This document shows, piece by piece, positions 41,140 through 61,496 of a stretch of 64,000 nt of DNA. The DNA is from Dietzia sp. JS16-p6b (GTDB lineage Bacteria > Actinomycetota > Actinomycetes > Mycobacteriales > Mycobacteriaceae), in assembly GCF_003052165.1 (NCBI RefSeq), contig NZ_CP024869.1:2204001-2268000 (forward strand), in the 5' to 3' direction. Position 1 is the stretch's first letter; every line of letters starts with the position of its first letter. Under the pieces are notes generated by a model. The model worked only from the letters and a program-made list of their open reading frames with translations. It had not been told where the DNA came from and did not search any database. Both the position numbers and the translations under genes were made by a program.

Positions 41140-41152
41140 TGAACCTAGTTCG
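41140..41152. promoter_or_regulatory. Weak match to the island's 13-bp motif
   Basis: TGAACCTAGTTCG contains the inverted repeat GAAC-CTA-GTTC and matches TGAAYTNRSTTCA at most but not all positions. It lies between the divergent LysR-like and MaoC genes. Listed as a weak candidate only. Confidence 0.25.
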
Positions 41153-41704: not shown

Positions 41705-41741
41705 GCGGCACCCGATCCGGGAGGCCACCCGAGGCGTATAC

Positions 41742-41754
41742 TGAATTCAGTTCA
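41742..41754. promoter_or_regulatory. Island motif copy 1: TGAATTCAGTTCA
   Basis: Imperfect palindrome 52 bases before the SDR start at 41806, partly overlapped by a further TTCACTTCA. Fits the shared 13-bp pattern TGAAYTNRSTTCA found in front of seven genes or operons of the island. A possible -10 element (GTATACT, 41736-41742) sits directly against it, so binding would block transcription. Confidence 0.6.
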
Positions 41755-41805
41755 CTTCATCTATCGTCGAGCGGTACACCCCCCGGCACCGGAAAGGCCG
41801 AACAC

Positions 41806-42555
41806 ATGGAGCGTTTTCAGGATCACGTCGTGCTCGTCACGGGTGCGACCGGTGGAATCGGCACGGAGATCTGCGGCCGGCTCGCGGCCGAGGGCGCCGT
41901 CGTCGTCGCCGCCGATCTGCCCGGTACCCCCCTCGACGAGGTGGCCTCCTCCCTCCCGGTCGGACCCCACCTCCGGGTGGAGCTCGACGTGGCGTCCGAG
42001 GAGCAGTGGAGCGCCGCGGTGAACCGCGTCATGGAAGCCCACGGCCGGCTGGACGTGCTGGTCAACAACGCGGGGATCGGCAGCCTCAAGACGGTGGAGG
42101 ACGAGTCCCCCGAGCACTGGCAGCGCGTCATCGACGTCGACCAGACCGGCGTGTGGCTGGGCATGAAGCACGCCGGCGCCGCCATCGAACGCACCGGCGG
42201 CGGGGCGATCGTCAACGTCTGTTCGATCCTCGGCAGCGTGGGCGGCTTCGGCAACAGCTTCGCCTACCATGCCGCCAAGGGCGCGGTACGGACGATGTCC
42301 AAGAACGCCGCGATGCACTGGGCCACCAGGGGCGTCAGGGTGAACTCCCTCCATCCCGGGTTCATCGAGACCCCCCAGCTCCTGGAGCGCTTCGAGGGCA
42401 GCGAGCGCCATCGCGGGATGCTCGCCGGTACCCCGATGGGACGGCTCGGCACCCCCGCGGAGATCGCCGGCTGCGTGGCCTTCCTGGCCAGCGACGACGC
42501 CGGGTTCATGACCGGCGCCGAGCTCTACGCGGACGGCGGCTGGACCGCGCGCTGA
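41806..42555 (+). CDS. SDR oxidoreductase
   Basis: 249 residues from the ATG at 41806 with GGAAAGG upstream. Classical SDR: TGATGGIGTEICGRLAAEG, VVVAADLPG (Asp, suggesting NAD), LVNNAGIGSLKTVED, catalytic serine in NVCSILGSVGG, YHAAKGAVRTMSKNAAMHWATRGVRVN and PGFIETPQLLERF, ending ELYADGGWTAR. The end resembles 3-alpha/20-beta-hydroxysteroid dehydrogenases and related cyclic-alcohol dehydrogenases. The substrate is unproven. The upstream palindrome suggests TetR control together with the catabolic operon. It converges with the metallo-hydrolase gene 17 bases on. Confidence 0.9.
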   Translation: MERFQDHVVLVTGATGGIGTEICGRLAAEGAVVVAADLPGTPLDEVASSLPVGPHLRVELDVASEEQWSAAVNRVMEAHGRLDVLVNNAGIGSLKTVEDESPEHWQRVIDVDQTGVWLGMKHAGAAIERTGGGAIVNVCSILGSVGGFGNSFAYHAAKGAVRTMSKNAAMHWATRGVRVNSLHPGFIETPQLLERFEGSERHRGMLAGTPMGRLGTPAEIAGCVAFLASDDAGFMTGAELYADGGWTAR

Positions 42556-42572
42556 GCCCGCACCGCCCCGCC

Positions 42573-43604
42573 TCAGGCGGTGACGAAGCGCTGTACGCCG
42601 GCGGGCGAGACCTCGTCGACGACGAGGTCTCCCCACGCCACCAACACGTCGAGATGCGCCATGGTCTCGCACGTCGCGATCATCTTGTTGAACACATCGA
42701 GCGAGGAGAACGCGCGCTCGCGGCGGGTCCAGGGGAGTCCCGCGGCCACCTCGAGCCCGGTCGCCCCCTGCCGGGCGGCCACCTGCGCCCGCGTGGCGTC
42801 CAGCCTCGAATCGTGATGGGAGAGCAGCTCGCGGACCCGCCCGTGGACGCTGCCTCCGACCGGCCCGTGCGCCGGCAGCATGAGCGTGTCCGGACGGTCC
42901 AGCATCGCCTCAAGTGAGGCGAGGTAATCACCCAGTGGGTTGTCCCACCCACCGAGTTCGAAGCCGATGGACGGGGAGATCCTGGGAAGCACGTGGTCGC
43001 CTGTGAACGTCACGCCGAGGGCGGCATCGTCGAACACGAGGTGCCCCTTGGTGTGGCCGGCGGTCCGCCGCGCCTGCATCGGCCGTCCCGCCACCGACAC
43101 CGGGCCGTCCTCGGTCCACGTGTCCGGCAACTCCCAGTCCTCGGCCACCCAGGGCTCGGCGAGCGCCTCGACACGGGACGCCTCGGCGATCTCCGCGGCT
43201 CCCGCCCGTCGGAGCTGATCGAGCGAGTCCGTGGGGACGCTGGTGCGCAGTTCGAGGAGCTCGGTCAGTCCGGGGCGCTCACCACCCCCCAGGTGGATGC
43301 GGCTCCCGACGCGCCTGCGGAGCTCCGGCCCCATCGTGTAGTGGTCGCGGTGAATGTGCGTCACGTGGACGTCGGTCACCTCGTCGAGCCCGATGTCGAC
43401 CGAGTTCAGACCGCCGCGCAGGATCTCGAGGTTGCCCGAAACGTTCCACCCGGCGTCGATCAGCGAGACCCCGTGCGGGCCCTCGACCACGTAGACGTTG
43501 ATCGCACGCAGGCCGTCCTGCGGCATCGGGAGCGGGATCCGGTGGACACCTTCGGCCACCGGATGGCACCCGAGTTCGGCCCAGTCCGCTCCCGAGGCGG
43601 TCAC
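42573..43604 (-). CDS. Metallo-beta-lactamase-fold hydrolase
   Basis: 343 residues from the GTG at 43604, which overlaps the stop of the EthD-like gene (GTGA). MBL motifs: INVYVVEGPHGVSLIDAGWN, metal-ligand motif THIHRDHYTMG (HxHxDH), AGHTKGHLVFDDAALGVTFTGDHVLP and LPAHGPVGGSVHGRVRELL. The C-terminal winged-helix-like segment (VAARQGATGLEVAAGLPWTRRERAFSSLDVFNKM) is that of LACTB2/GLX2-like hydrolases. Likely hydrolyses a thioester or lactone in the pathway, but the substrate is not evident. It forms a two-gene operon with the EthD-like gene under the palindrome at 43942. Confidence 0.89.
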   Translation of the reverse strand: MTASGADWAELGCHPVAEGVHRIPLPMPQDGLRAINVYVVEGPHGVSLIDAGWNVSGNLEILRGGLNSVDIGLDEVTDVHVTHIHRDHYTMGPELRRRVGSRIHLGGGERPGLTELLELRTSVPTDSLDQLRRAGAAEIAEASRVEALAEPWVAEDWELPDTWTEDGPVSVAGRPMQARRTAGHTKGHLVFDDAALGVTFTGDHVLPRISPSIGFELGGWDNPLGDYLASLEAMLDRPDTLMLPAHGPVGGSVHGRVRELLSHHDSRLDATRAQVAARQGATGLEVAAGLPWTRRERAFSSLDVFNKMIATCETMAHLDVLVAWGDLVVDEVSPAGVQRFVTA

Positions 43605-43927
43605 GAGTCGCCGACCATGACCTGCTCCTCGCCCATCACCATGATGGCGCGACCTCCCATGGAGCCGACGTGCTCCGCGGCCTTCGCCCATTCCGGGCTC
43701 TCGAGCATGGCGTCGTAGGCCTCCTTCGAGTCGAAGCTGAGAACCGACACACCGTCCCATCCCAGGGAGTGCCTGTTGGGACCGGTCTCCTTGACCGCGG
43801 TGTGCGACCACCGGCGCAGACCGGGCAGCGGATAGGTCACCTCGGCGTGCTCCCCGCGCCACCAGGTGATGAACTCCTCGTGAGTCCAGTCGCTGGGCTT
43901 CGACGCCATGACGATGAGGTTGTACAC
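43601..43927 (-). CDS. EthD-like dimeric alpha/beta-barrel protein
   Basis: 108 residues, GTG start. The sequence YNLIVMASKPSDWTHEEFITWWRGEHAEVTYPLPGLRRWSHTAV is typical of the EthD/ferredoxin-like stress-responsive barrel fold, and the C-terminal half (GWDGVSVLSFDSKEAYDAMLESPEWAKAA) completes the second alpha-beta unit. Members assist catabolic oxidations or isomerise intermediates; the role here is unknown. GGAGG lies 7 bases before the start, and the island's 13-bp palindrome lies 15 bases upstream. It is coupled to the MBL gene by a 4-base overlap. Confidence 0.82.
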   Translation of the reverse strand: MYNLIVMASKPSDWTHEEFITWWRGEHAEVTYPLPGLRRWSHTAVKETGPNRHSLGWDGVSVLSFDSKEAYDAMLESPEWAKAAEHVGSMGGRAIMVMGEEQVMVGDS

Positions 43928-43941
43928 GATACCTCCATAGT

Positions 43942-43954
43942 TGAATTCACTTCA
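43942..43954. promoter_or_regulatory. Island motif copy 2: TGAATTCACTTCA
   Basis: Exact match to TGAAYTNRSTTCA just upstream of the EthD-like gene, immediately 5' of its GGAGG ribosome site. It differs from copy 1 at a single base. Close enough to the start codon to act as a repressor site. Confidence 0.6.
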
Positions 43955-44028
43955 GAAATTGGTGTCACAGTACCACCACGGGATGCCGAAAACCCCTATT
44001 GCGCGGCCCCCGCGCGGACCGGAGCGCC

Positions 44029-44640
44029 TCAGTGCACCAGCCGGAAACACGCCCCCATGACCGAGTCCGAGACCTCGGGGAGGGTTCGACTGCCGCCGGG
44101 GCGGTACCAGTTCCACACGGAGTTGATCAGGCCCAGGACGAACCTCCCGAGTTCGACCGGGTCGCGCCGGGGGAACTCCCCCGAGTCCATCCCGCGCTCG
44201 AGGAGGCCGGTCCAGTCGCGCTCGACCACCCGGACGAGTTCACGTGCCCTGACCCGCTCCTCCTCCTCCCGCTCGGAGGAGCGAGGGGTGGCGAGCATGT
44301 CGATGTGGTGGAGAAGGATCCGCGCCTGGAGCGCCTCGGTCTCGGTGATGTCGTAGGCACTGGAGATCGCCGCCCGCAGCGCGGTCTCGGCGTCGCCCAC
44401 TCCCTCGACCGCCACCGTGAAGCGCTCGTGATACCTGGTGAGTTCGGCGCTCATGATGGTGAGCAGGCAGTGCGCCTTGGACTCGAAGTAGTGGTAAAGC
44501 GCGGTCTGCCCGATCCCCACCTCGCCGGCGATGGTCGCCCACTTCGTGTGCTCGTAACCGACGCTGCCGAAGTTCGCCACGGCCGCCTCGAGGATGACGT
44601 TCCTTTTGGATCTCGGGCCCTCGGTCTTTGTTGGCGCCAT
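44029..44640 (-). CDS. TetR-family regulator, probable controller of the catabolic island
   Basis: 203 residues from the ATG at 44640 (MAPTKTEGPRSKRN), preferred because GGGGGTAAAGG precedes it; an ATG at 44655 lacks a ribosome site. HTH: RNVILEAAVANFGSVGYEHTKWATIAGEVGIGQTALYHYFESKAHCLLTI. The C-terminal ligand domain includes LLHHIDMLATPRSSEREEEERVRARELVRVVERDW and LGLINSVWNWYRPGGSRTLP, similar to KstR2/FadR-type members. A variant of the 13-bp palindrome lies in its own upstream region (44683), and better copies lie before the other operons. It is therefore the best candidate regulator of all of them. The ligand is probably a CoA thioester. Confidence 0.88.
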   Translation of the reverse strand: MAPTKTEGPRSKRNVILEAAVANFGSVGYEHTKWATIAGEVGIGQTALYHYFESKAHCLLTIMSAELTRYHERFTVAVEGVGDAETALRAAISSAYDITETEALQARILLHHIDMLATPRSSEREEEERVRARELVRVVERDWTGLLERGMDSGEFPRRDPVELGRFVLGLINSVWNWYRPGGSRTLPEVSDSVMGACFRLVH

Positions 44641-44682
44641 CGCCTTTACCCCCATGTGAGTGATGATCCGTCCAGGTTAAGC

Positions 44683-44695
44683 GAAAGTGAGTTCA
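44683..44695. promoter_or_regulatory. Island motif copy 3 (variant) before the TetR gene
   Basis: The minus strand reads TGAACTCACTTTC, matching TGAAYTNRSTTCA in all but the last two bases. It lies 42 bases upstream of the TetR start codon, consistent with weak autoregulation. Confidence 0.5.
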
Positions 44696-44750
44696 GGTCA
44701 CAGTGGTATCGATCCACACCACAGGTGACCTCGCCGTCCCGCCGAACCGA

Positions 44751-46244
44751 TCAGTCCGCGAACATCTCCGCCGCGAGGGTCGCCGCTCCCTTGCGGTCCA
44801 ACTTGCCCACCCTGGACTGCGGGAGCACGGAGACCGACCGTACGAACTCGGGCCACTTGAACTTCGGGAAGTCCGCCGCCTCCAGGTGCCCACGGATCTG
44901 CTCGAGTCCGAGCGGTTCACCTTCCGACACGACGAGTGCCGCCGTCCGCTCTCCGAGTACCGGGTCGGGCACCGGGACCACGCACACCTGGTGGATCCCC
45001 GGGATGGCGGCGAGCGCGCTCTCCACCTCGTTGATGTCGATGTTGCGTCCACCGCGGATGATGAGGTCCTTCTCGCGCCCTCGGATGCTCACGCTGCCGT
45101 CGTCGTGGATCACCGCCCTGTCGCCGGTGGACAGGAAGCCGTCGGCATTGACGTCGGGCGCGACCGGGGCGCCCTCGCGGGCGTACCCCACGAACAGCGA
45201 GGGCCCGCGTACCTGCAGGGACCCGAGCTCACCCGGTTCGAGCACGGCACCGGCGGCGTCCACCACCCGCACCTCGGTCCCGGGGAACGGGCGTCCATCC
45301 CGTCCCAGGCGCACCTCCACCTCGTCCGAGGGGGACGGGGTGGTGTGACCCAGGCATTCGGACATCCCGAACACCCGGAGCAGGGTCGTACCCAGGGTGA
45401 CCTCGGCGTCGTGCAGCGCCTTCTGGTTCATCGGGCCGCCGCCGACGGTCATGGCCCGCATCGCCGACAGCGCACCCTCGGCACCGTCGACCAACGTGAG
45501 TTGCAGAGCCATGGTGGGGACCAGCATCGTCCAGGCCACGCGGTGCTCGCGCAGGAGCGCGACCGCCGTCTCCGGCTTCCACCTGTCCAAGGCCACCATC
45601 GCGCCGCCGAGCATGGTCGGCAGGTACATCCCGAAGCAGATCGCGGCCGCGGAGGACAGCGGCACCAGCGCACCCACCGGGTCACCGGGCCGAAGGCCCA
45701 CGGCCTCGATCGTCGAGCGGCATGCGTAGCGCAGGGCGTCCTCGGTCTGGATCACACACTTCGGGCGGCCGGTCGACCCGGAGGTCATGGCCGCCACCGC
45801 TCCCCCGTTCCAGCGGTCGACCCCGTTCGAACGACCGTCCGCCGGCCCCGCGACGACCCAGCCGTCCAGTGCCCGGCCGACCTCGACGAACCCGTGCTCG
45901 GCCAGCCCCCACACCTCGGCGGTGTCGGTGGCGGCCACCACGACGTCCGGCCGCAGATCCTCTGCGGCGAGATCGAACTCCGAGCGCGTCGCGTGTCCGC
46001 TCATCACCGCGAGCATTCCGCCGGCCAGTCCCACGGCCACTGCGGCCGACACCGTCCGCCACGAGTTGTCCGCACGGATGAGGACGGTCGGCGGGCCGTC
46101 CACCGCGGCCTCGATCACCCCGGCGAGCGCCCGCGCCCCGGCGAGGATCTCCCCGAGGTCGTGGGCACCGTCCCCGTCCACCACGGCGACGTCACCGGGC
46201 GTGCGGGCCGCGCGGTCGATGACGTCCTGGGCGAGCTGCTTCAT
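44751..46244 (-). CDS. AMP-dependent acyl-CoA synthetase
   Basis: 497 residues. ANL-superfamily motifs: AAMTSGSTGRPKCVIQ (P-loop), LRVFGMSECLGHTTPSP (A5), LSTGDRAVIHDDGSVSIRGREKDLIIRGGRNI (A7-A8, with the hinge Arg/Asp), and the A10 lysine in LPQSRVGKLDRKGA. It is shorter than FadD-type ligases and resembles those acting on cyclic or aryl carboxylates. AGGAG-type site (GGAGAAG) before the ATG. It is last in the long minus-strand operon, 37 bases after the alcohol dehydrogenase gene. It would activate the imported acid to its CoA ester. Confidence 0.91.
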   Translation of the reverse strand: MKQLAQDVIDRAARTPGDVAVVDGDGAHDLGEILAGARALAGVIEAAVDGPPTVLIRADNSWRTVSAAVAVGLAGGMLAVMSGHATRSEFDLAAEDLRPDVVVAATDTAEVWGLAEHGFVEVGRALDGWVVAGPADGRSNGVDRWNGGAVAAMTSGSTGRPKCVIQTEDALRYACRSTIEAVGLRPGDPVGALVPLSSAAAICFGMYLPTMLGGAMVALDRWKPETAVALLREHRVAWTMLVPTMALQLTLVDGAEGALSAMRAMTVGGGPMNQKALHDAEVTLGTTLLRVFGMSECLGHTTPSPSDEVEVRLGRDGRPFPGTEVRVVDAAGAVLEPGELGSLQVRGPSLFVGYAREGAPVAPDVNADGFLSTGDRAVIHDDGSVSIRGREKDLIIRGGRNIDINEVESALAAIPGIHQVCVVPVPDPVLGERTAALVVSEGEPLGLEQIRGHLEAADFPKFKWPEFVRSVSVLPQSRVGKLDRKGAATLAAEMFAD

Positions 46245-46281
46245 TGGGCTTCTCCTAAGCGATCAGTGGTCCGACGGCATG

Positions 46282-47369
46282 TCACGCCGCGGACGGGTCG
46301 GTTCCGGGGACGACGACGAGGCGACCGGATGCCCGACCGTGTCGCAGATCCTCGTAGGCCGCGGGCACCTCGTCCATCGTGCGCTCCTCGACGACCGAGA
46401 CGATCTCCCCTCGGCCGCGAGGGCGAGGACGGCGGCGAGGTCGGCGTGCGGGCCCCAGAAGGGTGCGGATACCCGCCACCCGCGAGGGACCGCGCCCTGC
46501 TTGTCCACCGTCAGGGCCCCGCCCGCGGAACCGACCACGGTGAGTCCTCCTCCGGTGCCCAGCATGCGGGCGCCCTGCGCCACCGTCTCCTGCGCGCCGA
46601 CGAAATCGAAGACCAGGTCGGCGCCCGTGCCCGCGGCCAGCCGGTCGACCACCTCGGCGGCCTCGCCGACCGAGGCGACAGCGTGGTCGGCACCGAGCTC
46701 GGTGGCCAGCGCCCGGGCGCTCTCGCGGGGGTCGACCGCCACCACCACCTCGGGCGAGCGGGACCTCAACACCTGCAGTGCGAGGTGGCCGAGCCCGCCG
46801 ATCCCGATCACCACGACCACCGATCCCCTCACGGTGGCGGGCTGCGACTGGACCGCGTGGTAGGCGGTGAGTCCGGCGTCGGTCAACGGGGCGAGGGCCG
46901 ATCCCGTGGTGGGGTCGACGGAGACGAGGTGTCGCGCCGCGGGGACGAGCATGTAGTCGGCCAGTCCCCCGTCGCGCCCGATCCCGCCGCCGATCGCGCC
47001 CTCGAGGCGGACGCAGTAGTTGTCCCGCCCGCTCCGGCACTTCCGGCACTCACCGCACGACCACACTCCGTGCACGGCGTAGGTCAACCCGACCCGGTTC
47101 TCGTCGGCGCGGTCGCCGACGGCGACCACCGTGCCCACGACCTCGTGGCCGAGGGTGAACGGGAGCGTGTACGGCAATCGCCCCTCGGGCGAGTCCATGA
47201 TGTGCAGATCGGAGTGGCACAACCCGGCGGCGTCCACCTTGAGGAGCAGTTCACCGGGCCCGGGGCGTGGCACGGGGATGCGGTCGAGCCTGGGGCCCGA
47301 CCCCCACTCGTGCAGACGCCACGCCCGCATGGTCGCGGGCAGCGCGACTCCCGACGTCGGAGGTGTCAT
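46282..47369 (-). CDS. Zinc-dependent alcohol dehydrogenase with C-terminal frameshift
   Basis: MDR-family enzyme starting at the ATG at 47369, which overlaps the SDR stop (ATGA). The catalytic-zinc region AAGLCHSDLHIMD and GHEVVGTVVAVG, structural-zinc cysteines in CGECRKCRSGRDNYC, and coenzyme loop VIGIGGLGHLALQVL are intact. At the CCCC run 46407-46410 (coding strand GAGGGGAGATC) the frame is lost: the current frame gives an Arg/Ser-rich tail to 46263, while the next frame gives the expected ending EIVSVVEERTMDEVPAAYEDLRHGRASGRLVVV with a stop at 46282. One inserted G restores it. Either an inactivating mutation or a sequencing error; the lost part includes the last strands of the fold. 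Confidence 0.82.
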
Positions 47370-48130
47370 CGCGCCGTCCACCCGCCGTCGACGGTGAGGA
47401 CGTGTCCGGTGACGTAGCTCGCGGCGTCGGAGGCGAGGAACAGCACCGCGCCGTCGACCTCACCCGCGCGGCCACCGCGGTTGAGCATGGTGTTGCGGCG
47501 CACCCAGGTCGCGGATTTCTCGTTGGCGAACAGCCCGTCGGTCATCTCGGTGTCGAACCACCCGGGCACCACCGCGTTGACCCGCACGCCGCGTCGGCCC
47601 CACTGGCCGGCGAGCTCGCGGGTGACGCCGATGACCGCGGACTTGGACGCCGCGTAGCCCGCGCCCCCGATCGGCGCCGTGGAGACCAGTCCGATCACCG
47701 ACGAGATGTTGATGATCGAACACCCCCTCCCCTCGGGCAGGGCGTTGACGGCCGCGGCGGACAGGTGGAATCCCGAGGTGAGGTTGACGCGCAGGATGTC
47801 GTCGAACTCCTCCGCGCTCTCGGAGAGGGCGTCGGGCGGGCCGGGCCGACCGGCGTTGTTGACCAGGATGTCGACCCCGCCGCCCACCTCCGACGCCGTG
47901 GCCACGAGCCGGGCGCGGTCCTGCGGATCCGTGATGTCACACTCGACCGGCACCAACCCGGGCACCTCGGCGGCCAGGCCGGCCAGTCGCTCGGCGCGGC
48001 GGGCGGCGGCGACCACCGTCGCGCCCGCGGCGGCCAGGGTGCGCGCGAAGCCCTCCCCGAGTCCCGAGGACGCGCCCGTCACCACGGCGACCCGCCCCGT
48101 GAGATCGAAGAGCTCGGTCGGAGTGGACAT
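47366..48130 (-). CDS. SDR oxidoreductase
   Basis: 254 residues: FDLTGRVAVVTGASSGLGEGFARTLAAAGATVVAAARRAERL (NADP-type), LVNNAGRPGPPDALSE, catalytic serine in NISSVIGLVSTAP, YAASKSAVIGVTRELAGQWGRRGVRVN and PGWFDTEMTD, ending LTVDGGWTAR. It is close in style to the SDR encoded at 34606, which sits beside the other ACAD11/kinase pair. The start overlaps the stop of the preceding SDR gene by one base and its stop overlaps the alcohol dehydrogenase start, so it is deep inside one coupled operon. Confidence 0.9.
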   Translation of the reverse strand: MSTPTELFDLTGRVAVVTGASSGLGEGFARTLAAAGATVVAAARRAERLAGLAAEVPGLVPVECDITDPQDRARLVATASEVGGGVDILVNNAGRPGPPDALSESAEEFDDILRVNLTSGFHLSAAAVNALPEGRGCSIINISSVIGLVSTAPIGGAGYAASKSAVIGVTRELAGQWGRRGVRVNAVVPGWFDTEMTDGLFANEKSATWVRRNTMLNRGGRAGEVDGAVLFLASDAASYVTGHVLTVDGGWTAR

Positions 48131-48890
48131 CAGTAGACCGCCGTCCGGCCGCCGTCCACGGGGATCAGCGCTCCCGTGGTGTATCCGGCCTGGTCAGAAG
48201 CCAGGTGGACGACCAGACCCGCGAGCTCCGCGGGCTCACCCAGCCGGCCGGCCGGGAGCCGGTTGACCACCAGGCCGAGGAACTCGTCGTCCCAGTCCGC
48301 CGCCATGTCGGAGGCGAAGGCTCCGGGCATGATGCAGTTGACGCGCACGGTCGGCGCGTATTCCTGGGCGAAGGCACGAGTCAGGGCGTTGAGACCGTTC
48401 TTCGAGGCCGCGTACGTGGCCTCGGGCGGGCTGGGGCGCTCGGCCCCGATGCTGGAGATGTTGATGATCGACCCGCCGCCGGCCGCGACCATCCGGTCCC
48501 CCGCCACCGCCATCAGACGGAACGGGCCCTTGAGGTTGACGTCGATGGTCTTGGTGAACAGCGCCTCGGAGACCTCCAGGGCCGACGGCGCGAGCGGTGC
48601 GATGCCGGCGTTGTTGACCACCACGTCGATCGACCCGTGGTCGCGGACGATCTGGTCCACGGCCGGTTCGATGGCGTCCCAGTCGCCGACGTGCAGCGCC
48701 AACGGGTGCGCCGCATTGCCGGTCGCGGCGGAGATCTCGGCGGCCACCGCCTCGCACTGGTCGGCCTTGCGGCTCGAGACGATCACGGTGGCGCCGGCCT
48801 CGGACAGGGCGAGCGCCATGGCCTTGCCGAGGCCCCGGGTCGCGCCGGTGACGAGCGCGACCTTGCCGGCCAGGAGGGTGGACGTGGCGC

Positions 48891-48894
<4 letters not shown>
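48130..48894 (-). CDS. SDR oxidoreductase
   Basis: 254 residues from the ATG at 48894, overlapping the ACAD stop (ATGA). GKVALVTGATRGLGKAMALALSEAGATVIVSSRKADQ (NADP-type arginine/lysine), VVNNAGIAPLAPSALEV, catalytic serine in NISSIGAERPSPPE, YAASKNGLNALTRAFAQEYAPTVRVNC and PGAFASDMAADW, ending IPVDGGRTAVY. A second SDR in tandem suggests two successive alcohol/ketone conversions or two stereoisomers. The ends of its neighbours overlap, so expression follows the operon. Confidence 0.9.
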
Positions 48895-50117
<1,223 letters not shown>

Positions 50118-50148
50118 CGTGCTCTCTCGTTTCTCGGGTGGTGCCGCG

Positions 50149-53536: not shown

Positions 53537-53961
53537 CAGACCTCCTTCTTACTGGTGGATTCGGCGGGGGGCGCGGCATCCGCGTTGACGGCGGGGGCGG
53601 TGGCGAGGGCGAGGGCGAACCTCGGTACCGGATCGGCCCCCACCAGAACGACCTCGCGGCCGATCAGATCGATCGGCGACGTGCCCTCGAGCAGCGCCTC
53701 GACCTTGACGCCCTCGGGCAGTTCGACGTAACCGACGGCGTAGGGGCGGAAGCCCCCGGGCGGCGCCACGTACGGCGGCGACTTCGGGGCGAACCGCTGG
53801 ATGGTCGCGGTCCATACCGTGCCGGTGGTGGACAGGTCCGTCTCGGCGGTCTCGGACCCACCGCAGCGCTGACAGCTCACGGAGGCGGGAAACGCCACGG
53901 TCGTGCAGTGCGCGCACCGGCTCCCCCGCAACAGCGGTGGGAGGGTCTGGTTCTCGTTCAT
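53536..53961 (-). CDS. DUF35 OB-fold/zinc-ribbon protein, thiolase partner
   Basis: 141 residues from the ATG at 53961, with AGGAG 8 bases upstream. The N-terminal zinc ribbon has two CxxC pairs: SRCAHCTTVAFPASVSCQRCGG. It is followed by the OB-fold (GTVWTATIQRFAPKSPPYVAPPGGFRPYAVGYVELPEGVKVEALLEG). DUF35 proteins form complexes with SCP2-type thiolases and hydratases and bind the acyl-CoA. It has an unstructured Ala/Pro-rich C-terminus. It is the second gene of the operon, coupled to the thiolase-like gene. Confidence 0.9.
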   Translation of the reverse strand: MNENQTLPPLLRGSRCAHCTTVAFPASVSCQRCGGSETAETDLSTTGTVWTATIQRFAPKSPPYVAPPGGFRPYAVGYVELPEGVKVEALLEGTSPIDLIGREVVLVGADPVPRFALALATAPAVNADAAPPAESTSKKEV

Positions 53962-54011
53962 CGTGTGCACTCCTGGTTCCGTAGACGTTTCCCGCTCCGT
54001 GATCGGTCAGA

Positions 54012-54800
54012 TCAGCGGCCGACCCACTTGGGCTCACGCTTCTCGAGGAATGCCTGGATGCCCTCCTTGCCGTCCTCCGACTGGAGCGAGTTACCCACCG
54101 CGAAGTGCTCCATGATCATGAGCGACTTGATGTCGGCGTCCAGGCCCTGGTTCACGGCCATCTTGGTGAGCTTCATCATGAACGGGCTCTTGTCGGTCAG
54201 GGTCCCGATGAACTCCTCGACGCACTGGTCGAGCTTGTCGGCGGGGGCCGAGTCGTTGATGAGGTCGAAGTCCTTGGCCTCCTGGCCCGAGAGCAGCTTG
54301 CCCGTGAGCATGAGCTCCTTGGTCTTGCGCAGGCCGATCATCCGCGGGAGGCGGTAGATGGGGCCGGCGCCACCGAAGAGGGCGCGACGGATGTGGAAGT
54401 CGCCGATCTTGGCGTCGTCCGCAGCGATCGCGAAGTCACACGAGATCATGAGCTCGAAGCCACCGGCGGTGACGTAGCCCTCGAGCACGGCCACCGACGG
54501 CGTGTTCATCGAGTAGAGGCGGTCGCACACCTGGGCCGAGAGGACGCCGACGTCCATGGCGTTGGTGGTGCCGACGAAGTCACCCAGCAGCTCGTCGAGG
54601 TCGAAGCCCGAGCAGAACTGGTTCTGCACGCCACGGAGCACGAGCACCTTGAGGTCGGGATCCGCGTCGACCTCCTTGATGATCTCGTCGAGGCGGTGGA
54701 GCAGCTCCACGGTGACGGCGTTCTTCTTGTGGGGGCGGTTGAGCCACACGCGGGCGACGTCGCCGTCCTTCTCCAACAGAACGTGGTCGGTCTGAACCAT
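54012..54800 (-). CDS. Crotonase-superfamily protein (enoyl-CoA hydratase/isomerase-like)
   Basis: 262 residues. Crotonase fold: VWLNRPHKKNAVTVELLHRLDEII, oxyanion-hole segments NQFCSGFDLDELLGDF and VLEGYVTAGGFELMISCDFAIAAD, then IGDFHIRRALFGGAGPIYRLPRMIG. Around the two glutamates of enoyl-CoA hydratase the sequence differs: the segments GYVTAGGFEL and HIRRALFGGAGPIYRL offer no obvious pair, so isomerase, hydrolase or lyase chemistry is possible. It is the first gene of the ten-gene minus-strand operon, with the strong palindrome at 54825 just upstream and a AGGAAAGACC-type ribosome site. Confidence 0.9.
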   Translation of the reverse strand: MVQTDHVLLEKDGDVARVWLNRPHKKNAVTVELLHRLDEIIKEVDADPDLKVLVLRGVQNQFCSGFDLDELLGDFVGTTNAMDVGVLSAQVCDRLYSMNTPSVAVLEGYVTAGGFELMISCDFAIAADDAKIGDFHIRRALFGGAGPIYRLPRMIGLRKTKELMLTGKLLSGQEAKDFDLINDSAPADKLDQCVEEFIGTLTDKSPFMMKLTKMAVNQGLDADIKSLMIMEHFAVGNSLQSEDGKEGIQAFLEKREPKWVGR

Positions 54801-54824
54801 GGTCTTTCCTTTCGTAAGTCATTC

Positions 54825-54842
54825 TGAACTGGATTCAGTTCA
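54825..54842. promoter_or_regulatory. Island motif copy 4: double palindrome before the catabolic operon
   Basis: TGAACTG-gatt-CAGTTCA is a perfect 7-base inverted repeat. It contains two overlapping matches to the 13-bp island pattern (54825-54837 TGAACTGGATTCA, and a second at 54830-54842). It lies 25 bases before the crotonase start and is the most symmetric copy, fitting the longest operon. Confidence 0.65.
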
Positions 54843-54934
54843 TGTCTACACTGTGATGCAGGCCTCGTCAACCTCTGTCGTCGTGAGGTTTTCCTCGGCC
54901 CGGCCGGACCCGCCGAGAGGCGGATCCGGCCTGG

Positions 54935-56035
54935 TCAGAGCTCTGGAGAGAGCGGGTAGATCTTGAGGCTCTCCGAGCGGAAACTGATGACGACGGGCTC
55001 GCCCCTCTTCGCTCGCCGCAGCCAGTCGCCATGGACCGCGGCGGAGGCCCGGAGTCGGTACTCCTCCGGCCCCGCACCCACCTGGACGTCGTAGTAGCGA
55101 CCACCGAACTCGGCGGACAGCAGAGTCGCCTCGAGGGTGATCTCCCGGTGCGAGACGTCCTCCTCCGGCCGGTGCAGCGTGATGTCGTCAGGCCACAGAC
55201 GGGCGGACACGGCACGACTGTCGCCCGTCTCGCAGCGCAGCGGTAGTTCGGTGCCCGCCGCCGTGGTCCATTCCAATCCGGTGCGGTGCAACTCGAGCCG
55301 GTTGGACATGCCGATGAAGTCGGCCACGTATTCGCTCACGGGGTGATCGAACACGTCCTGCGGGGTCGCGAGCTGCTCGATCTTCCCCTGCTTCATGATC
55401 GCGAGACGATCCCCGAGCGCGAACGCCTCGGAGTGGTCGTGGGTGACGAAGACCGCGCCGAACCCCAGCTCGTCGTGCAGCCGGCGGATCTCCGTGCGCA
55501 CCTGGTCGCGCAGGAGCGCGTCCAGGTTGCTGAGCGGTTCGTCGAAGAGGACGAGATCGGGCCTCGACGCCATCCCCCGGGCGACGGCGATCCGCTGCTG
55601 CTGACCGCCGCTCAACTGCGAGGGATAGCGGTCGAGCAGGTGGCCGCAGTCGACCATCTCCGCGGCCTCTTCGACCCTCCCGGAGTTGAGCGCGTCCTTG
55701 AGCTTGCGCGCCTTCAACGGGTACGCGATGTTCTTCCGCACCGTCATGTTGGGCCACAGGGCATAGGACTGGAACACCATCCCGATGCTCCGCTTGTTGG
55801 GAGGCACGTTCACGCGGTTGGCCGCGTCGAACATCGGTGCGCCGTCGAAGGCGATCGACCCCGCCTCGGGGGTCTCGAGGCCGGCGAGACACCGCAGCGT
55901 GGTGGTCTTGCCGCACCCGCTCGGACCGAGGAGGACGAGGAACTCGCCCGCTCCGATCTCCAGATCGAGCTCGTCGACGACGACGTTGCTTCCGTATTGC
56001 TTGGTGAGACCGGAGATCTCGATTTTCGCGGTCAT
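54935..56035 (-). CDS. ABC transporter ATP-binding protein
   Basis: 366 residues. Walker A GPSGCGKTTTLRCLAG (residues about 37-45 for the loop), Q-loop FQSYALWPNMTVRKNIAYPL, signature LSGGQQQRIAVARGMA, Walker B LVLFDEPLSNLDALLR and H-loop VFVTHDHSEAF. Residues about 245-366 form a TOBE-type regulatory domain. It is the class used by iron(III), putrescine, sulfate and phosphonate importers. The gene is third in the importer operon after binding protein 1 and the permease. It drives uptake of the same unknown substrate and is regulated with them through the palindrome at 58988. Confidence 0.94.
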   Translation of the reverse strand: MTAKIEISGLTKQYGSNVVVDELDLEIGAGEFLVLLGPSGCGKTTTLRCLAGLETPEAGSIAFDGAPMFDAANRVNVPPNKRSIGMVFQSYALWPNMTVRKNIAYPLKARKLKDALNSGRVEEAAEMVDCGHLLDRYPSQLSGGQQQRIAVARGMASRPDLVLFDEPLSNLDALLRDQVRTEIRRLHDELGFGAVFVTHDHSEAFALGDRLAIMKQGKIEQLATPQDVFDHPVSEYVADFIGMSNRLELHRTGLEWTTAAGTELPLRCETGDSRAVSARLWPDDITLHRPEEDVSHREITLEATLLSAEFGGRYYDVQVGAGPEEYRLRASAAVHGDWLRRAKRGEPVVISFRSESLKIYPLSPEL

Positions 56036-56117
56036 TGGTCTTCCTCACATTCACGCCGGCGGAAAGGCTCGGCTCGGTCACCTGGTAACAGGGCGGGCGC
56101 GCACCCGCGGGACGACA

Positions 56118-57791
56118 TCACAGCTTCTCCAGGACGTTGCGTCCGCCGATCAGCATCGCGACCGCGACACCGGCACCCGTGACCGCGGACATGAGAATCG
56201 CCATCGCGGCGACGAGGGTGTACGAACCGTTGCTCCAGTGGTCGTAGAGCAGGGTGCCCATCACCTGCGTCGTCGCGGAGCGGACCATCAGCGAGGCCGC
56301 GAACTCGTGGGTCAGGAGGATGAACATCAGCGCGATCGAGCTGAGGATGGTCGGCCGGAGCATCGGCAGCGTGATCCTCGCCATCGTCGCCACCGGGCCG
56401 GCTCCCGAGACCGCCGAGGCCTCCTCGTACTTGTCACCCATCGAGATGAGCGCCGTCAGCTGCATACGGGTCGCGAACGGGATCATGAGGACCACGTAGA
56501 CCAGGATGATGACGGCCTTGGTGCCGTAGAGGATGAGCGGCGGTTCGGTGTAGGTGAGCAGGAACCCGACGCCGAAGATGACGGCCGGGATACCCATCGG
56601 CAGCGCCGTGATGAGGTCGGCGACGGTACGCAGGATGCGCAGGTCCTGCCTCCGGACCATGAGGTTCGCGACACCGAACCCGATGGGCACACAGATCAGC
56701 ACGGCGACGATCGACGTCACGACACTCGTGACGACCGAGTCCACTATGCCCGGGGTGGTGACCAGCGCCCGGTAGTTGCTCAGGGTGAACAGGTCCCAGG
56801 ACAGGGTCCCCGACCAGAACGGGGTCAGGGACACGATGATCACCCCTGCCAGCGGGAGGATGAGCGCGACCAGACCGTAGACGGCGACGATCGCCGTGGC
56901 CCAGTGCGAGGACCCTCCGACCGGGGAGAAGGACTTGCCCCCATGGGTGACGAACCGGGTCTGGTTGCCCAGGAGCGCCCGCTGGCCGAACACCACGAGG
57001 ATGCCCATGATGACCAGGGGGGATCCCGCGGCCGCGGCGGCGGCGAAGTTGATGGGTGACTCCGAGGCCCGGAGGTACATCTCGGTGGCCAGGACCTTGA
57101 CGCCCTCGTTCTGACCCAACAGCAGGGGCGCGGTGAACTGGCCGAGGCCCAGCAGCAGGGCCACACCGGCGCCGTAGACGAGCGACGGGCGCAGCAGTGG
57201 GAGGACCACCTTGAAGAACGTCCCGATGGTCGTGGAACCGGCGATCTGGGCGGCCTCGAGGTGCTCGCCGCTGATGTTCTGCATCCCGGCGCTGACGAAG
57301 AGGTACACGAACGAGGTGAGGCTGAACCCGGTGATGATGATGATCCAGGTCGGGCTGTACACGTTGACCGGGCCGGAGTTCAGATCACTCCACCAGGGCA
57401 GCATCCGGAGCAGGATGTTGATGTAGCCGGGGCCCGGGGAGAGCAGGAACGCGAATCCCACGACGTTCGCGACCGACGGGATGACGATCGGCAGGATCGG
57501 GACCAGACGCAGGAAACCCATGCGGCGCGGCAACCGGGTGGTCGCGAAGGCGAGGACGGTTCCGCACACCATGGCGATCACCAGCGAGAAGAACGCGAGC
57601 GCGGCCGTGGTCTGCAGGGTGGTGACGATGTCTGCGCGTCCGTACTGCGAGCGGTAGCCGGCCGCACCGTTCTCGAACGCCAGCGACTGGAGTTTGAACA
57701 GCGGCCAGACCACCAGGTACGCGAGCACGAGTATCAGTGCCGCGTACATCAACCGATGTCGCCATATCGACAGCGGACCTGAACTTTTCAC
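56118..57791 (-). CDS. ABC transporter permease, fused double (FbpB-type)
   Basis: 557 residues, GTG start, about 12 membrane helices. Two binding-protein-dependent permease domains are fused, each with its own EAA loop: LEAAQIAGSTTIGTFFKVVLPLLRPSL near residue 195 and YEEASAVSGAGPVATMARITLPMLRPTI near residue 465. This makes a single-chain channel like FbpB-type iron or 2-aminoethylphosphonate permeases. It lies between the first binding protein and the ATPase. A strong hairpin separates it from the binding-protein gene. Confidence 0.94.
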   Translation of the reverse strand: MKSSGPLSIWRHRLMYAALILVLAYLVVWPLFKLQSLAFENGAAGYRSQYGRADIVTTLQTTAALAFFSLVIAMVCGTVLAFATTRLPRRMGFLRLVPILPIVIPSVANVVGFAFLLSPGPGYINILLRMLPWWSDLNSGPVNVYSPTWIIIITGFSLTSFVYLFVSAGMQNISGEHLEAAQIAGSTTIGTFFKVVLPLLRPSLVYGAGVALLLGLGQFTAPLLLGQNEGVKVLATEMYLRASESPINFAAAAAAGSPLVIMGILVVFGQRALLGNQTRFVTHGGKSFSPVGGSSHWATAIVAVYGLVALILPLAGVIIVSLTPFWSGTLSWDLFTLSNYRALVTTPGIVDSVVTSVVTSIVAVLICVPIGFGVANLMVRRQDLRILRTVADLITALPMGIPAVIFGVGFLLTYTEPPLILYGTKAVIILVYVVLMIPFATRMQLTALISMGDKYEEASAVSGAGPVATMARITLPMLRPTILSSIALMFILLTHEFAASLMVRSATTQVMGTLLYDHWSNGSYTLVAAMAILMSAVTGAGVAVAMLIGGRNVLEKL

Positions 57792-57847
57792 TTCGATCTG
57801 TCCTCAGCTCGGGGTAGTGCGGTGCGGGATCGGCGGCGTGCGGGGAT

Positions 57848-57884
57848 CCGGCCCGCGGTGGGCGAACACCTCACCGCGGGCCGG
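57848..57884 (-). terminator. 13-bp perfect stem between binding protein 1 and permease genes
   Basis: CCGGCCCGCGGTG (57848-57860) and CACCGCGGGCCGG (57872-57884) form a perfect stem with an 11-base loop, starting 8 bases after the binding-protein stop. No T-run follows. It probably acts as a partial terminator or as a 3' stabiliser of the binding-protein message, giving more binding protein than permease. Confidence 0.6.
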
Positions 57885-57892
57885 GTCGGGGC

Positions 57893-58945
57893 TCAGCCCA
57901 GGAAGAGCTGTTCCCACTGAGCCTGGTACTCCTGGACCGTCTCGGGATCCAGGGTGTCCGGATCACCCAGCTCGACGTCCTGAGCCGTGACCGTCGAGCC
58001 CGGCACGCCCGTGCCCGGGACGTCCGGGAGCACCGAGAGGTAGTCGGCCGAGATGGCTTCCTGACCCTTGTCCGTGATGAGGAAGTCCGCGAGCAGCTGC
58101 GCCGCGTTCGGATTGGGCGCCGAGGCGAGGACGTGGGAGTACCAGGGCACGCCCCACGGGTTCTCGGGGAGCGCGAAGTCGACCGGAGCGCCCTTGTCCT
58201 TCTCGGTCAGGACGTTGCTCGCCGCCATCGGCGCCACCCACACCTCACCGGAGGCCAGGGCCTGGGTGATCGCGACCGCGCTCGAGTAGATCCGCGGGTT
58301 CGTCTCGGCGAGCCGTTCGAGGTAGTTCTCGCCGTAGTCCACGTCGATCTTGCGGTACATGTCGACGTAGGTCGGGATGCCGTTCGGGTTCTGGATGCCG
58401 ACCTTGCCGTCGAACCGGGGGTCGAGTGCGTCGTCCGGCGTCGCCAACCCCTCGGGGACCTGCGCGGTGTTCCACCCGAGGCCGAACACCGTCGCACTGG
58501 TGAGGAAGAACTTGTCCTCGAGCACGCTCTCCGCGCGGTCGTAGTCGGGGTTGTCCAGCGAGGGCGCCACGACCTCGGCCGAGTAGTCGGTGTCGAAGCT
58601 GCGGTTGATCCACCCGGCGTCCGTGGTCATGTGGACGTCCGCGACGCCGGACCCGGTGGAGTTCTCCACCTCGATCTTCGGCAGGATGTCCGCGTCCGTC
58701 CCGCGGACGTAGGTGAGGGTGATGCCGGGATACTCCGCCTCGAACGCCTGCTTGAGGGCCTCGAGGTTGTCCGGGGAGTGGGTGGAGTAGATCGTCACGC
58801 TGCCCTCCTCCTGGGCGGCGGCGACGATCTCGTCCCATGATCCCGCGAGCTCCGAACCCGATCCGGAGTCCGACCCGCACCCCGCGAGCACCAACGCGAG
58901 CGCTGCCCCGCTGGCGACAGCGGCCTTGAATCTGGAAAAGCGCAT
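57893..58945 (-). CDS. ABC substrate-binding lipoprotein 1
   Basis: 350 residues from the ATG at 58945 with GGAAGGGAA upstream. Lipoprotein signal: RFKAAVASGAALALVLAGCGS with lipobox LAGC, then SELAGSWDEIVAAAQEEGSVTIYS. It is an iron(III)/phosphonate-type family 1 binding protein (NLEALKQAFEAEYPGITLTYVRGTDADILPK, VADVHMTTDAGWINRS, SATVFGLGWNTAQVP, GLATPDDALDPRFDGKVGIQNP, WGVPWYSHVLASAPNPNAAQLLADFL). The adjacent tyrosine pair that binds iron in FbpA proteins is not visible, so an organic ligand is more likely. It leads the importer operon. Its paralogues at 59078 and 60369 share most blocks. Confidence 0.92.
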   Translation of the reverse strand: MRFSRFKAAVASGAALALVLAGCGSDSGSGSELAGSWDEIVAAAQEEGSVTIYSTHSPDNLEALKQAFEAEYPGITLTYVRGTDADILPKIEVENSTGSGVADVHMTTDAGWINRSFDTDYSAEVVAPSLDNPDYDRAESVLEDKFFLTSATVFGLGWNTAQVPEGLATPDDALDPRFDGKVGIQNPNGIPTYVDMYRKIDVDYGENYLERLAETNPRIYSSAVAITQALASGEVWVAPMAASNVLTEKDKGAPVDFALPENPWGVPWYSHVLASAPNPNAAQLLADFLITDKGQEAISADYLSVLPDVPGTGVPGSTVTAQDVELGDPDTLDPETVQEYQAQWEQLFLG

Positions 58946-58987
58946 TGCTTCCCTTCCTGTGACGGCCACCGGGAGCCGGAGCCGAAT

Positions 58988-59000
58988 TGAACTAACTTCA
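58988..59000. promoter_or_regulatory. Island motif copy 5: TGAACTAACTTCA
   Basis: Exact match to TGAAYTNRSTTCA, 43 bases before binding protein 1, the first gene of the importer operon. It is followed directly by GTGAACTG, which could extend it to a second half site. Confidence 0.62.
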
Positions 59001-59077
59001 GTGAACTGTATGACCCAGGTCACGTGAGCGCAAGGGGAAGCGCCCGTTAACTTCGCCGGGATCCTGATCTCGGGCCG

Positions 59078-60130
59078 TCAGCCGAGGAACCTGCGCTCCC
59101 AGGCGGCGACGTACTCCTCCACCGCCGCCGCCTCGAGCGTCTCCGGATCCGCGAGATCGATGTCCTGCGCGACGACGTCCGAGCCCTCGACCCCCGTGCC
59201 CGGGACATCCGGCAGTGCGGCGATGTAGTTCTCCGAGAGCGCGGCCTGCCCGGCCGGGGTGAGCATGAAGTCCGCGAGCACCTGTCCCGCGTTCGGGTGG
59301 GGCGCGGCCGCCAGGACGTGCGAGTAGAACGGGATACCGATGGGGTTCGCGGGCAGGGCGAAATCGACGGGCGCGCCCTTGTCCCGTTCCGCCAGGACGT
59401 CCATGGACGCCCCGGGGGCAGCCCAGATCTCACCCGACGCGAGCGCCTGGGTGATCGCGGGCGCACTGCCGTAGATGCGGGGATTGACGCCGGCGAGCCT
59501 GTCGACGAACCCCTCCCCGTAGTCGATGTCCATCCGGCGGTAGATGTGCACGACGGCAGGGAAGCCGGCGGGATTGACGACGCCGACCTTGCCGTCGAAC
59601 CGCGGGTCGAGCAGGTCCTCGGGGGACGCGAGCCCAGCGGGCACGTTCTCCGTGTTCCACGCCAGGCCGATCGAGGTCGCACTGGTGACGAAGAAGGTGT
59701 CGTCCAGCACCCCGTCCTCCGCGCGGTACGCGGGGTCGTCGATCGCCGGCGCGACCACTTCCACCGAGTAGCCACCCGAATCGAGGCTGCGCTGGATCCA
59801 CCCGGCGTCGGTGGTCATGTGGACATCGGCGACCCCGCTGCCCGTCTGGTTCTCGACCTCGACCCGGGGGATCAGATCGGAATCCGTCCCGCGGACGTAG
59901 TTCAACGAGATCCCGGGATACTCCGACTCGAATGCGGTCTTGAGCGACTCCAGGTTGGCCGGGGCGTGGTTGGAGTAGATGGTCACGCTCCCCTCGTCGG
60001 TGGCGGCGGCGACGATCTCGCCCCACGAGCCGGCCAGTTCCGAACCGGTGTCGTCCGATCCGCATGCCGAGGCGACGGCGGCGGTCGTGACGAGCACCGC
60101 GATCGCGGCCACGGTGCCTGTGAACCTCAT
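59078..60130 (-). CDS. ABC substrate-binding lipoprotein 2
   Basis: 350 residues. Signal peptide with lipobox: AVLVTTAAVASACGSDD. The body repeats the plan of protein 1: SELAGSWGEIVAAATDEGSVTIYSNHAPANLESLKTAFESEYPGISLNYVRGTDSDLIPR, VADVHMTTDAGWIQRS, LDPRFDGKVGVVNPAGFP and GIPFYSHVLAAAPHPNAGQVLADFM, ending YVAAWERRFLG. It is the most divergent of the three. It has its own palindrome at 60168 and no permease gene directly behind it, so it probably shares the one permease. Different ligand preference or affinity is likely. Confidence 0.92.
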   Translation of the reverse strand: MRFTGTVAAIAVLVTTAAVASACGSDDTGSELAGSWGEIVAAATDEGSVTIYSNHAPANLESLKTAFESEYPGISLNYVRGTDSDLIPRVEVENQTGSGVADVHMTTDAGWIQRSLDSGGYSVEVVAPAIDDPAYRAEDGVLDDTFFVTSATSIGLAWNTENVPAGLASPEDLLDPRFDGKVGVVNPAGFPAVVHIYRRMDIDYGEGFVDRLAGVNPRIYGSAPAITQALASGEIWAAPGASMDVLAERDKGAPVDFALPANPIGIPFYSHVLAAAPHPNAGQVLADFMLTPAGQAALSENYIAALPDVPGTGVEGSDVVAQDIDLADPETLEAAAVEEYVAAWERRFLG

Positions 60131-60167
60131 ATGCTTCCCCTTTCCGGAGACGAGGAGCTCATTGAGT

Positions 60168-60180
60168 TGAACTCACTTCA
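60168..60180. promoter_or_regulatory. Island motif copy 6: TGAACTCACTTCA
   Basis: Exact match to TGAAYTNRSTTCA, 38 bases before binding protein 2. GAGGAG (60151-60156, plus strand) on the other strand is not related. It shows that the second binding-protein gene has its own regulated promoter. Confidence 0.62.
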
Positions 60181-60290
60181 TTGCAGAATAGGGTCGAGAT
60201 CACACCGCGTCAGCCGTTCGGGACGACCGGCGTCCATCCCTGCGACGGCGGCCCCGAGTGCGGATCCGGCAGCAGGGGGACGGGCACAGC

Positions 60291-60333
60291 GATCGGCCCG
60301 CCGGCCCGGGATACCGGGCGCGACGGGCCGATC
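60291..60333 (-). terminator. Long bipartite hairpin after binding protein 3
   Basis: GATCGGCCCG (60291-60300) pairs with CGGGCCGATC (60324-60333), and inside it CCCGG (60305-60309) pairs with CCGGG (60314-60318). It begins 36 bases beyond the binding-protein-3 stop on that strand. No T-run. A likely terminator that isolates the next palindrome-controlled gene. Confidence 0.55.
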
Positions 60334-60368
60334 CATTTCCGGCCCCGACTGGAGACGGCAGCGGCGAC

Positions 60369-61421
60369 TCAGCCGACGAACTTGCGCTCCCATTCGGCCT
60401 GGTAGGCGGTGACAGTCTCGGGATCGAGGTCCTCGTGGTCCGCGAGACCGATATCCTGGGCGATCACCGATGATCCCTCGATACCCGTCCCGGGGATGTC
60501 CGGAAGCGCGGCGACGAAGTCGGCGGAGATGGCCTCCTGCCCCTCGGGCGAGATGAGGAAGTCGGCCAGTACCTGTGCGGCGTTGGGGCTGGGCGCGGAG
60601 GCCAGGACGTGGGAGTACCAGGGCACGCCGAACGGGTTCTCCGGCAGGACGAAGTCGACCGGCGCCCCCTTCTTCTTCTCCGTGAGGACGGTGCTGCCCG
60701 CCATCGGGGCAGCCCAGACCTCACCGGAGGCCAACGCCTGGGTGACGGCCACGTTGCTGGCGTAGATCTGCGGGTTGACCGTCGCGAGCCGGTCGACGAA
60801 ACCGTCCCCGTAGTCGACGTCGATCTTCTGGTACATGTCCACATAGGTGGGCATACCGTTCGGATTCTGGATACCGACCTTGCCGTCGAGCCGCGGATCC
60901 AGGACATCGTCCGGCTCCGACAGCCCTTCGGGGACGTTGTCCGTGTTCCAGCCGAGCCCGAAGACAGTCGCGCTCGTGACGAAGAACTTGTCCTCGATCA
61001 CGCTGTTCTCGGACTGGTACCCGGGCTGCTCCAGATTGGGGGCCACGACCTCGGTCGAGTAGTCCGTGTCGAGGCTGCGGTGGATCCACCCGGCGTCCGT
61101 GGTCATGTGGACGTCCGCGACTCCCGTCCCGGTCTGATTCTCGACCTCGATCTTGGGAAGGATGTCCGCATCGGTCCCGCGAACGTACACCAGCGTGATG
61201 TCGGGATACTGCGCCTCGAACGCCACCTTGAGCGCTTCGAGGTTCGTCGGCGAGTGGCTCGAGTAGAGGGTGACTTCCCCCTCCTGATTGGCGGCCTCGA
61301 CGATCTCATCCCACGATCCGGCGAGTTCGGAGCCCGAGCCCCCTCCCGTGCCGCACCCCGCGAGCACGAGGGCGAGCGCCATCCCACCTGCCACGATTGA
61401 CCTGATCCTTGCTGTTCTCAT
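60369..61421 (-). CDS. ABC substrate-binding lipoprotein 3
   Basis: 350 residues from the ATG at 61421 with AGGAG upstream. Lipobox LAGC in GGMALALVLAGCGTGG. The body is very close to protein 1: SELAGSWDEIVEAANQEGEVTLYSSHSPTNLEALKVAF, RGTDADILPKIEVENQTGTG, VADVHMTTDAGWIHRS, TSATVFGLGWNTDNVPEGL, NGMPTYVDMYQKIDVDYGDGF and FGVPWYSHVLASAPSPNAAQVLADFL, ending YQAEWERKFVG. It has its own upstream palindrome (61465). Three regulated copies of one receptor type with one permease suggest a family of related ligands. Confidence 0.92.
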   Translation of the reverse strand: MRTARIRSIVAGGMALALVLAGCGTGGGSGSELAGSWDEIVEAANQEGEVTLYSSHSPTNLEALKVAFEAQYPDITLVYVRGTDADILPKIEVENQTGTGVADVHMTTDAGWIHRSLDTDYSTEVVAPNLEQPGYQSENSVIEDKFFVTSATVFGLGWNTDNVPEGLSEPDDVLDPRLDGKVGIQNPNGMPTYVDMYQKIDVDYGDGFVDRLATVNPQIYASNVAVTQALASGEVWAAPMAGSTVLTEKKKGAPVDFVLPENPFGVPWYSHVLASAPSPNAAQVLADFLISPEGQEAISADFVAALPDIPGTGIEGSSVIAQDIGLADHEDLDPETVTAYQAEWERKFVG

Positions 61422-61464
61422 CTGCGATCTCCTGGGGGTCAGGCTCCGGGGTATACTCCCGAAG

Positions 61465-61477
61465 TGAACTAGCTTCA
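61465..61477. promoter_or_regulatory. Island motif copy 7: TGAACTAGCTTCA
   Basis: Matches TGAAYTNRSTTCA 44 bases before binding protein 3, inside the wider inverted repeat GAAGTGAACTAGCTTCAC. GTATACT (61451-61457) lies close by and may be a plus-strand element. Confidence 0.6.
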
Positions 61478-61496
61478 CCTCACTCTATGGCATGGG

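Follow-up and report, generated by a model that had tools for sequence, protein, structure and literature searches.

A conserved 18-bp operator and its probable TetR-family regulator at an acyl-CoA catabolic gene island of Dietzia and its relatives

In this study, we analyzed a window of 64,000 nucleotides from Dietzia sp. JS16-p6b (NZ_CP024869.1, positions 2,204,001 to 2,268,000), which harbors a gene island encoding an ABC importer, CoA-dependent catabolic enzymes and a TetR-family regulator at 44029..44655 (44029 TetR). Coordinates are positions in this window, and those termed “extended” run on past its end. A 13-bp palindrome repeated across the island represents part of an even dyad of 18 bp (up to 24 bp), whose axis lies 2.5 bp away, and comparative genomics indicates that the 44029 TetR very probably reads this operator. 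We consider it highly likely that this protein is a local repressor, which would block RNA polymerase at the 18-bp dyads and be released by an acyl-CoA, so that the island genes would be co-induced. Relatives such as Rhodococcus and Streptomyces appear to control a corresponding island in this way.

The motif is real, non-random and local to the island. Exact copies of the 13-mer lie at 41742, 43942, 58988, 60168 and 61465; the copies at 54825 and 54830 have one mismatch each, that at 44683/44688 has two, and that at 41140 has one to two depending on the strand. Every copy named in the original prediction is thus present where it had been placed. Allowing up to two mismatches, the window contains 25 matches compared to a mean of 4.91 (standard deviation 2.56) in shuffled sequence, with 0/100 shuffles reaching 25, and the motif is therefore not equally frequent in random DNA. 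Genome-wide (3.72 Mb, single contig), a search named as a check in the original prediction placed the exact 13-mer in six places, all within 28 kb (2245742–2273613) and one of them past the window end; with up to one mismatch, 30 strand-matches were obtained vs. 4 for the reversed 13-mer. The good copies had been described as lying within about 50 bases of a start codon, and the measured gap between 18-mer and start codon is 9–51 bp for these and 79 bp for the weak 41140 copy, based on start codons that we chose ourselves (the one at 69586 is uncertain). Outside the island, a match to the 18-mer with three mismatches, TGGGATGAATGCAGTTCA, is located at G000:C1:1206327-1206344; it recurs letter for letter (on either strand) in genomes G102 and G009 and may be part of a conserved coding sequence. 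Neither a tRNA nor, at gathering score, any Rfam family was detected in the window, and a sigma-70 scan of 44000–62000 yielded one promoter-like site vs. 0.9 expected.

To describe the operator, palindromic expectation maximisation was applied to 198 thinned stretches upstream of five genes from many genera, and it recovered TGAAnTGAA|TTCAnTTCA. The penalised score, which is not a probability because the upstream stretches share ancestry, reached 1504 for a width of 13 bp, 1726 for 14 bp, 1549 for 15 bp, 2162 for 18 bp and 2484 for 24 bp. Even dyads therefore score far above odd ones of similar width, and the 13-bp palindrome, the unit of the original prediction, was rejected as the whole operator. 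Under the 18-bp dyad, the site at 54825, formerly taken as double, counts as one operator. A test independent of the extension pointed partly the same way: in 38/77 distinct exact 13-mers, a flank matches at least three of the four extension bases, compared to 6/77 for displaced flanks. It could be argued that the 13-bp palindrome is nevertheless the operator proper and the longer dyad an accident of overlapping 13-bp sites, as several copies overlap by 5 bp and the other 39/77 lack a good flank for the extension (at most 2/4 bases on either side). In view of the scores of the even dyads and the difference from displaced flanks, we regard this as unlikely. The predicted operators within the window, with no strand assigned, are the following:

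41140..41152, weak operator before the MaoC gene, with similar sites at the same place in G088 (three mismatches) and G034
41737..41759, operator before the dehydrogenase gene SDR_a, two overlapping 18-mers with two mismatches each
43937..43954, operator with three mismatches before the EthD and metallo-beta-lactamase-fold hydrolase (MBL) genes
44683..44700, weak operator with four mismatches before the TetR gene
54825..54842, best operator, one mismatch, before the catabolic operon led by the enoyl-CoA hydratase (ECH) gene
58983..59000, operator with three mismatches before the gene of solute-binding protein (SBP) 1
60163..60180, operator with two mismatches before SBP2
61460..61477, operator before SBP3; the 13-mer at 61465 is exact, and the 18-mer is absent from the matches with up to three mismatches

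Further sites are located past the window end at extended 69596 and 73104, and another, weak one lies at 73178. As a correction to the original prediction, a small EthD gene (43601–43927) stands between the 43942 copy and the MBL gene.

Two domains score above cut-off in the 44029 TetR, PF00440 (40.5 bits) and PF17932 (59.5 bits). Orthologs with at least 54% identity were found in 26/201 genomes of the family; overall, 28 genomes matched at 1e-15, but two of these (G176, G194) showed only 31% identity and were left out of the site scans. Scanning with the 18-mer (up to three mismatches, one strand) covered 42 genomes, 26 with and 16 without the TetR, and the TetR-bearing genomes gave 219 matches vs. 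14 for the reversed control. Among named relatives, for which the best 80 of 143 were used, the closest is 96% identical and comes from Dietzia. The loci of these 80 (1.58 Mb) contain 160 sites, compared to 0–3 for seven control patterns, with at least one site in 74/80 and at least two in 51/80; in 28/80 loci, a site lies at most 260 nt upstream of the TetR match, vs. 0–2 for the controls. Printed maps of 14 genomes revealed the island or part of it in 11, with sites before the corresponding genes despite differing gene order, and in G278, which belongs to another family, a TetR of 59% identity, the island and the sites are all present. Across a phylum-wide sample the TetR is rare (2/296 genomes at 1e-45, present genome included). 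These results back the link between TetR and motif, which the original prediction had put forward as inference, and the sites in the islands of relatives support a local regulon coupling the ABC importer to CoA-dependent catabolic genes.

The position of the operator was analyzed upstream of ECH. Of 65 upstream regions listed, four were without TTGAC; keeping those of exactly 143 nt and collapsing identical ones left 61 distinct sequences, and the four dropped rows are, we think, those in which the gene begins past the end of the locus. The operator is present in 61/61, with one mismatch in 30, two in 27, three in 3 and four in 1. From the start of TTGAC (-35 element) to the start of the operator the distance is 28–30 bp in 59/61 (exactly 29 in 44) and 34 bp in two. 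As 29 bp equal a -35 hexamer, a 17-bp spacer and a -10 hexamer, the operator starts at the -10 end, which is a repressor geometry and makes blocking of RNA polymerase the likely mechanism.

Several observations weigh against the 44029 TetR as reader of the sites. The 16 genomes without it still hold 30 matches to the 18-mer (control 10), compared to the 219 given above; 6/80 loci show no site in the fetched flanks, and 52/80 orthologs have no site with up to four mismatches just upstream. The operator is found at the promoters of the TetR's neighbors, but the TetR gene itself has a weak site in the present genome (four mismatches), and three genomes (G102, G139, G174) carry the TetR without the island and hold only 1, 1 and 3 sites. 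Four of the TetR-less genomes were checked: 18 of their 19 matches have three mismatches, the matches are spaced by at least tens of kb per contig, and the best TetR-like match per genome is 27–37% identical. G200, another of the TetR-less genomes, has two of its three sites on a 7.5-kb contig that also carries the island genes for ACAD3, SnoaL, flavoprotein and OYE. At G102:C66:33490-35550 and G139:C1:2327704-2329727, the TetR gene stands directly beside an SHMT gene, which elsewhere flanks the far end of the island; the island therefore looks deleted in these genomes, leaving what is probably a deletion scar and an orphaned regulator.

The weak site of the 44029 TetR itself and the three genomes retaining it without sites around it would also suit another reader, either the TetR at 39709 or a factor whose gene lies elsewhere, with the 44029 TetR merely travelling along. 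However, the 39709 TetR also occurs in the Dietzia genomes G102 and G139, which are island-less with one site each, the median identity of its matches across the 80 loci is 31%, and no clear ortholog was seen in the non-Dietzia maps, so that it was rejected as reader. The maps, in which not every gene of every relative was annotated, revealed no further regulator, and we judge this explanation improbable. Finally, the 44029 TetR could bind the sites and serve as an activator, as some TetR-family proteins do; FasR has been described in this way. This is very hard to reconcile with operators that start at the -10 end in most ECH upstreams, a place suited to blocking the polymerase, and we give it hardly any weight.

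The computation showed the operator, that it is conserved and occurs together with the TetR, and how it sits in the promoter; from this we infer binding, repression and inducer as follows. The 44029 TetR would act as a local repressor, probably also of its own gene, and would bind as a dimer or pair of dimers to the 18-bp dyad directly after the -10 element, thereby blocking RNA polymerase. A pathway intermediate, most likely an acyl-CoA thioester from the ligase, would occupy its C-terminal domain, whereupon the repressor would leave; an acyl-CoA inducer is plausible because the solved relatives of this TetR include KstR2 (41.5–42 bits) and FadR of Bacillus subtilis (34.5 bits). Importer, ligase, oxidation and cleavage enzymes would then be made together. 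An organic acid would be imported and activated with CoA, the APH kinase and the acyl-CoA dehydrogenase ACAD1 would handle a hydroxyacyl-CoA, and hydration, oxidation and cleavage by the thiolase/OB pair would follow.

The genes of the island within the window were annotated as follows:

41237..41704, + strand, MaoC dehydratase (Pfam)
41806..42555, + strand, SDR_a dehydrogenase
42573..43862 as listed open reading frame (ORF), - strand, MBL (Pfam); the true start is further in because the 5' part of the ORF overlaps the EthD gene
43601..43927, - strand, EthD-domain protein (Pfam)
44029..44655, - strand, TetR-family regulator with TetR_N and TetR_C_24, proposed repressor (Pfam, orthologs)
44751..46244, - strand, AMP-forming acyl-CoA ligase (Pfam)
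46263..48894, - strand, Zn alcohol dehydrogenase and two SDRs
48891..50117, - strand, ACAD1, dehydrogenase of the ACAD11/LvaC type carrying Tyr at the His634 position
50149..51285, - strand, APH kinase resembling the kinase domain of ACAD11 (longest ORF)
51153..52409, - strand, ACAD2 (longest ORF)
52379..53970, - strand, SCP2-type thiolase and ChsH2-type OB (DUF35) partner
54012..54800, - strand, ECH (crotonase; Pfam)
54935..57791, - strand, ABC importer ATPase and fused permease
57893..61478, - strand, three solute-binding proteins, SBP1–3 (Pfam)
61497..64000, - strand, DUF1254/DUF1214 gene pair (Pfam), the second gene running to extended 64249

The regulon extends about 9 kb past the window end, a continuation that the original prediction had not included, with genes for SDR_d, a Zn alcohol dehydrogenase, a fused OYE, a KstD-like flavoprotein, an MFS protein and a divergent ACAD3/SnoaL pair. 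An exact 13-mer lies upstream of the flavoprotein gene, and two sites belong to the divergent pair. The proposal of a complete route held for the importer and the CoA-dependent catabolic genes in a local regulon, whereas completeness was overstated; its outline also omitted the APH kinase adjoining the ACAD11-type dehydrogenase. The DUF1254/DUF1214 pair beside the importer has no site of its own upstream within the window, its regulon membership is uncertain, and each gene has matches in 1/80 loci of relatives.

Near the TetR, 61–70 of the 80 loci encode the ligase, APH, ACAD1, SDR_b, SDR_c, MBL, ECH, thiolase, ACAD2, OB and SDR_a, although part of the SDR_c matches are other SDRs because the median identity is only 33%. 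The ABC permease and ATPase were found in 23/80 loci within the fetched flanks. Islands of relatives also contain a thiolase, trifunctional-type proteins, an enone-reductase-like enzyme and an alpha/beta hydrolase; the first three assignments are based on our own reading of the sequences, not all of which were scanned. In one island (G195:C5:5238795-5244370), 18-mer sites lie near an extra permease of the branched-chain type (Liv-like) and a binding protein. Steroid-like, phytohormone-like and lactone-derived substrates were considered from the KstD-like, OYE, MBL, hydrolase and enone-reductase-like genes, but none was supported, and a literature search on phytohormones returned nothing useful.

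The APH/ACAD1 pair, which belongs to the conserved core of the regulon, resembles LvaA/LvaC of Pseudomonas putida and mammalian ACAD10/11, in which, according to PMC12440821, an APH-type kinase is likewise joined with an ACAD11-type dehydrogenase, and ACAD11 phosphorylates 4-hydroxyacyl-CoA and converts it to 2-enoyl-CoA. ACAD1 scores 405–419 bits against ACAD11 chains and one putative acyl-CoA dehydrogenase (all others at most 145), and APH scores 65–69 bits against the ACAD11 kinase domain. Among 84 ACAD1 rows, of which 76 are distinct because some genomes appear in both of two sets, the catalytic Asp and Arg626/631/637 are kept in 84/84; residue positions were read from the alignment and are offset by one from the chain numbering. 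The APH catalytic motif HGD[FY]RLGN is present in 82/84 rows, with HGDFRLAN in one and none found in one. The island pair thus keeps the HGD motif, Arg residues and catalytic Asp of these systems, but differs in its larger surroundings (importer, SDRs, thiolase) and in the His634 position, a phosphate contact, which is Tyr in 84/84 rows (76/76 distinct) with no His found. An order-level search (200 genomes, 90 matched) retrieved 30 loci, of which 26 are His-His and four, all of the island type, have Tyr. The dehydrogenase at 48891–50117 belongs to a subfamily with invariant MHYAMR where others have IHHCMR. Based on the conserved residues, the pair may work like LvaAC in outline, while membership fails at one residue. 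It is possible, although we would not yet favor it, that the island represents an undescribed actinobacterial pathway for a CoA-activated, probably cyclic hydroxy acid, which a stand-alone kinase would phosphorylate before His-to-Tyr ACAD11-type enzymes of altered chemistry or substrate act on it, with import and degradation under the joint control of one TetR, whose 18-bp operator would be common to genera from Dietzia to Streptomyces.

Among known systems, FadR of Bacillus subtilis, whose effector is long-chain acyl-CoA, recognizes an 18-bp operator of the TGAAT...ATTCA type, with spacer letters differing from those of the island operator. Its sequence kinship with the 44029 TetR is weak, and it controls a broad fatty-acid regulon rather than one island. 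The KstR2 regulon of mycobacteria and Rhodococcus shares a TetR repressor, a conserved palindrome and nearby acyl-CoA catabolic genes, but differs in its 14-bp operator, AnCAAGnnCTTGnT, and in its gene set (PMC3068626); membership was rejected since the operator learned here does not correspond to the published one. BkaR of mycobacteria is also an autoregulated TetR repressor of a local acyl-CoA operon, but PMC3920632 gives a 16-bp core, GTTA(N)T(N4)A(N)TAAC. QsdR of Rhodococcus, another lactone-linked TetR (PMC6262395), showed no link to the 44029 TetR. In the open-licence literature, a search with six exact site strings returned two papers, both unrelated, and searches by topic found no matching regulon, in line with the original prediction, which named no equivalent described regulon with this motif.

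The regulon is of an ordinary kind and, in its details, apparently undescribed. A cross-genus operator and regulator for this gene island mean that its substrate can be sought by a derepression screen of compounds. Furthermore, the island ties a kinase and ACAD11-type pair, recently explained in mammals, to a bacterial regulon, and the invariant active-site change in its ACAD1 is open to assay.

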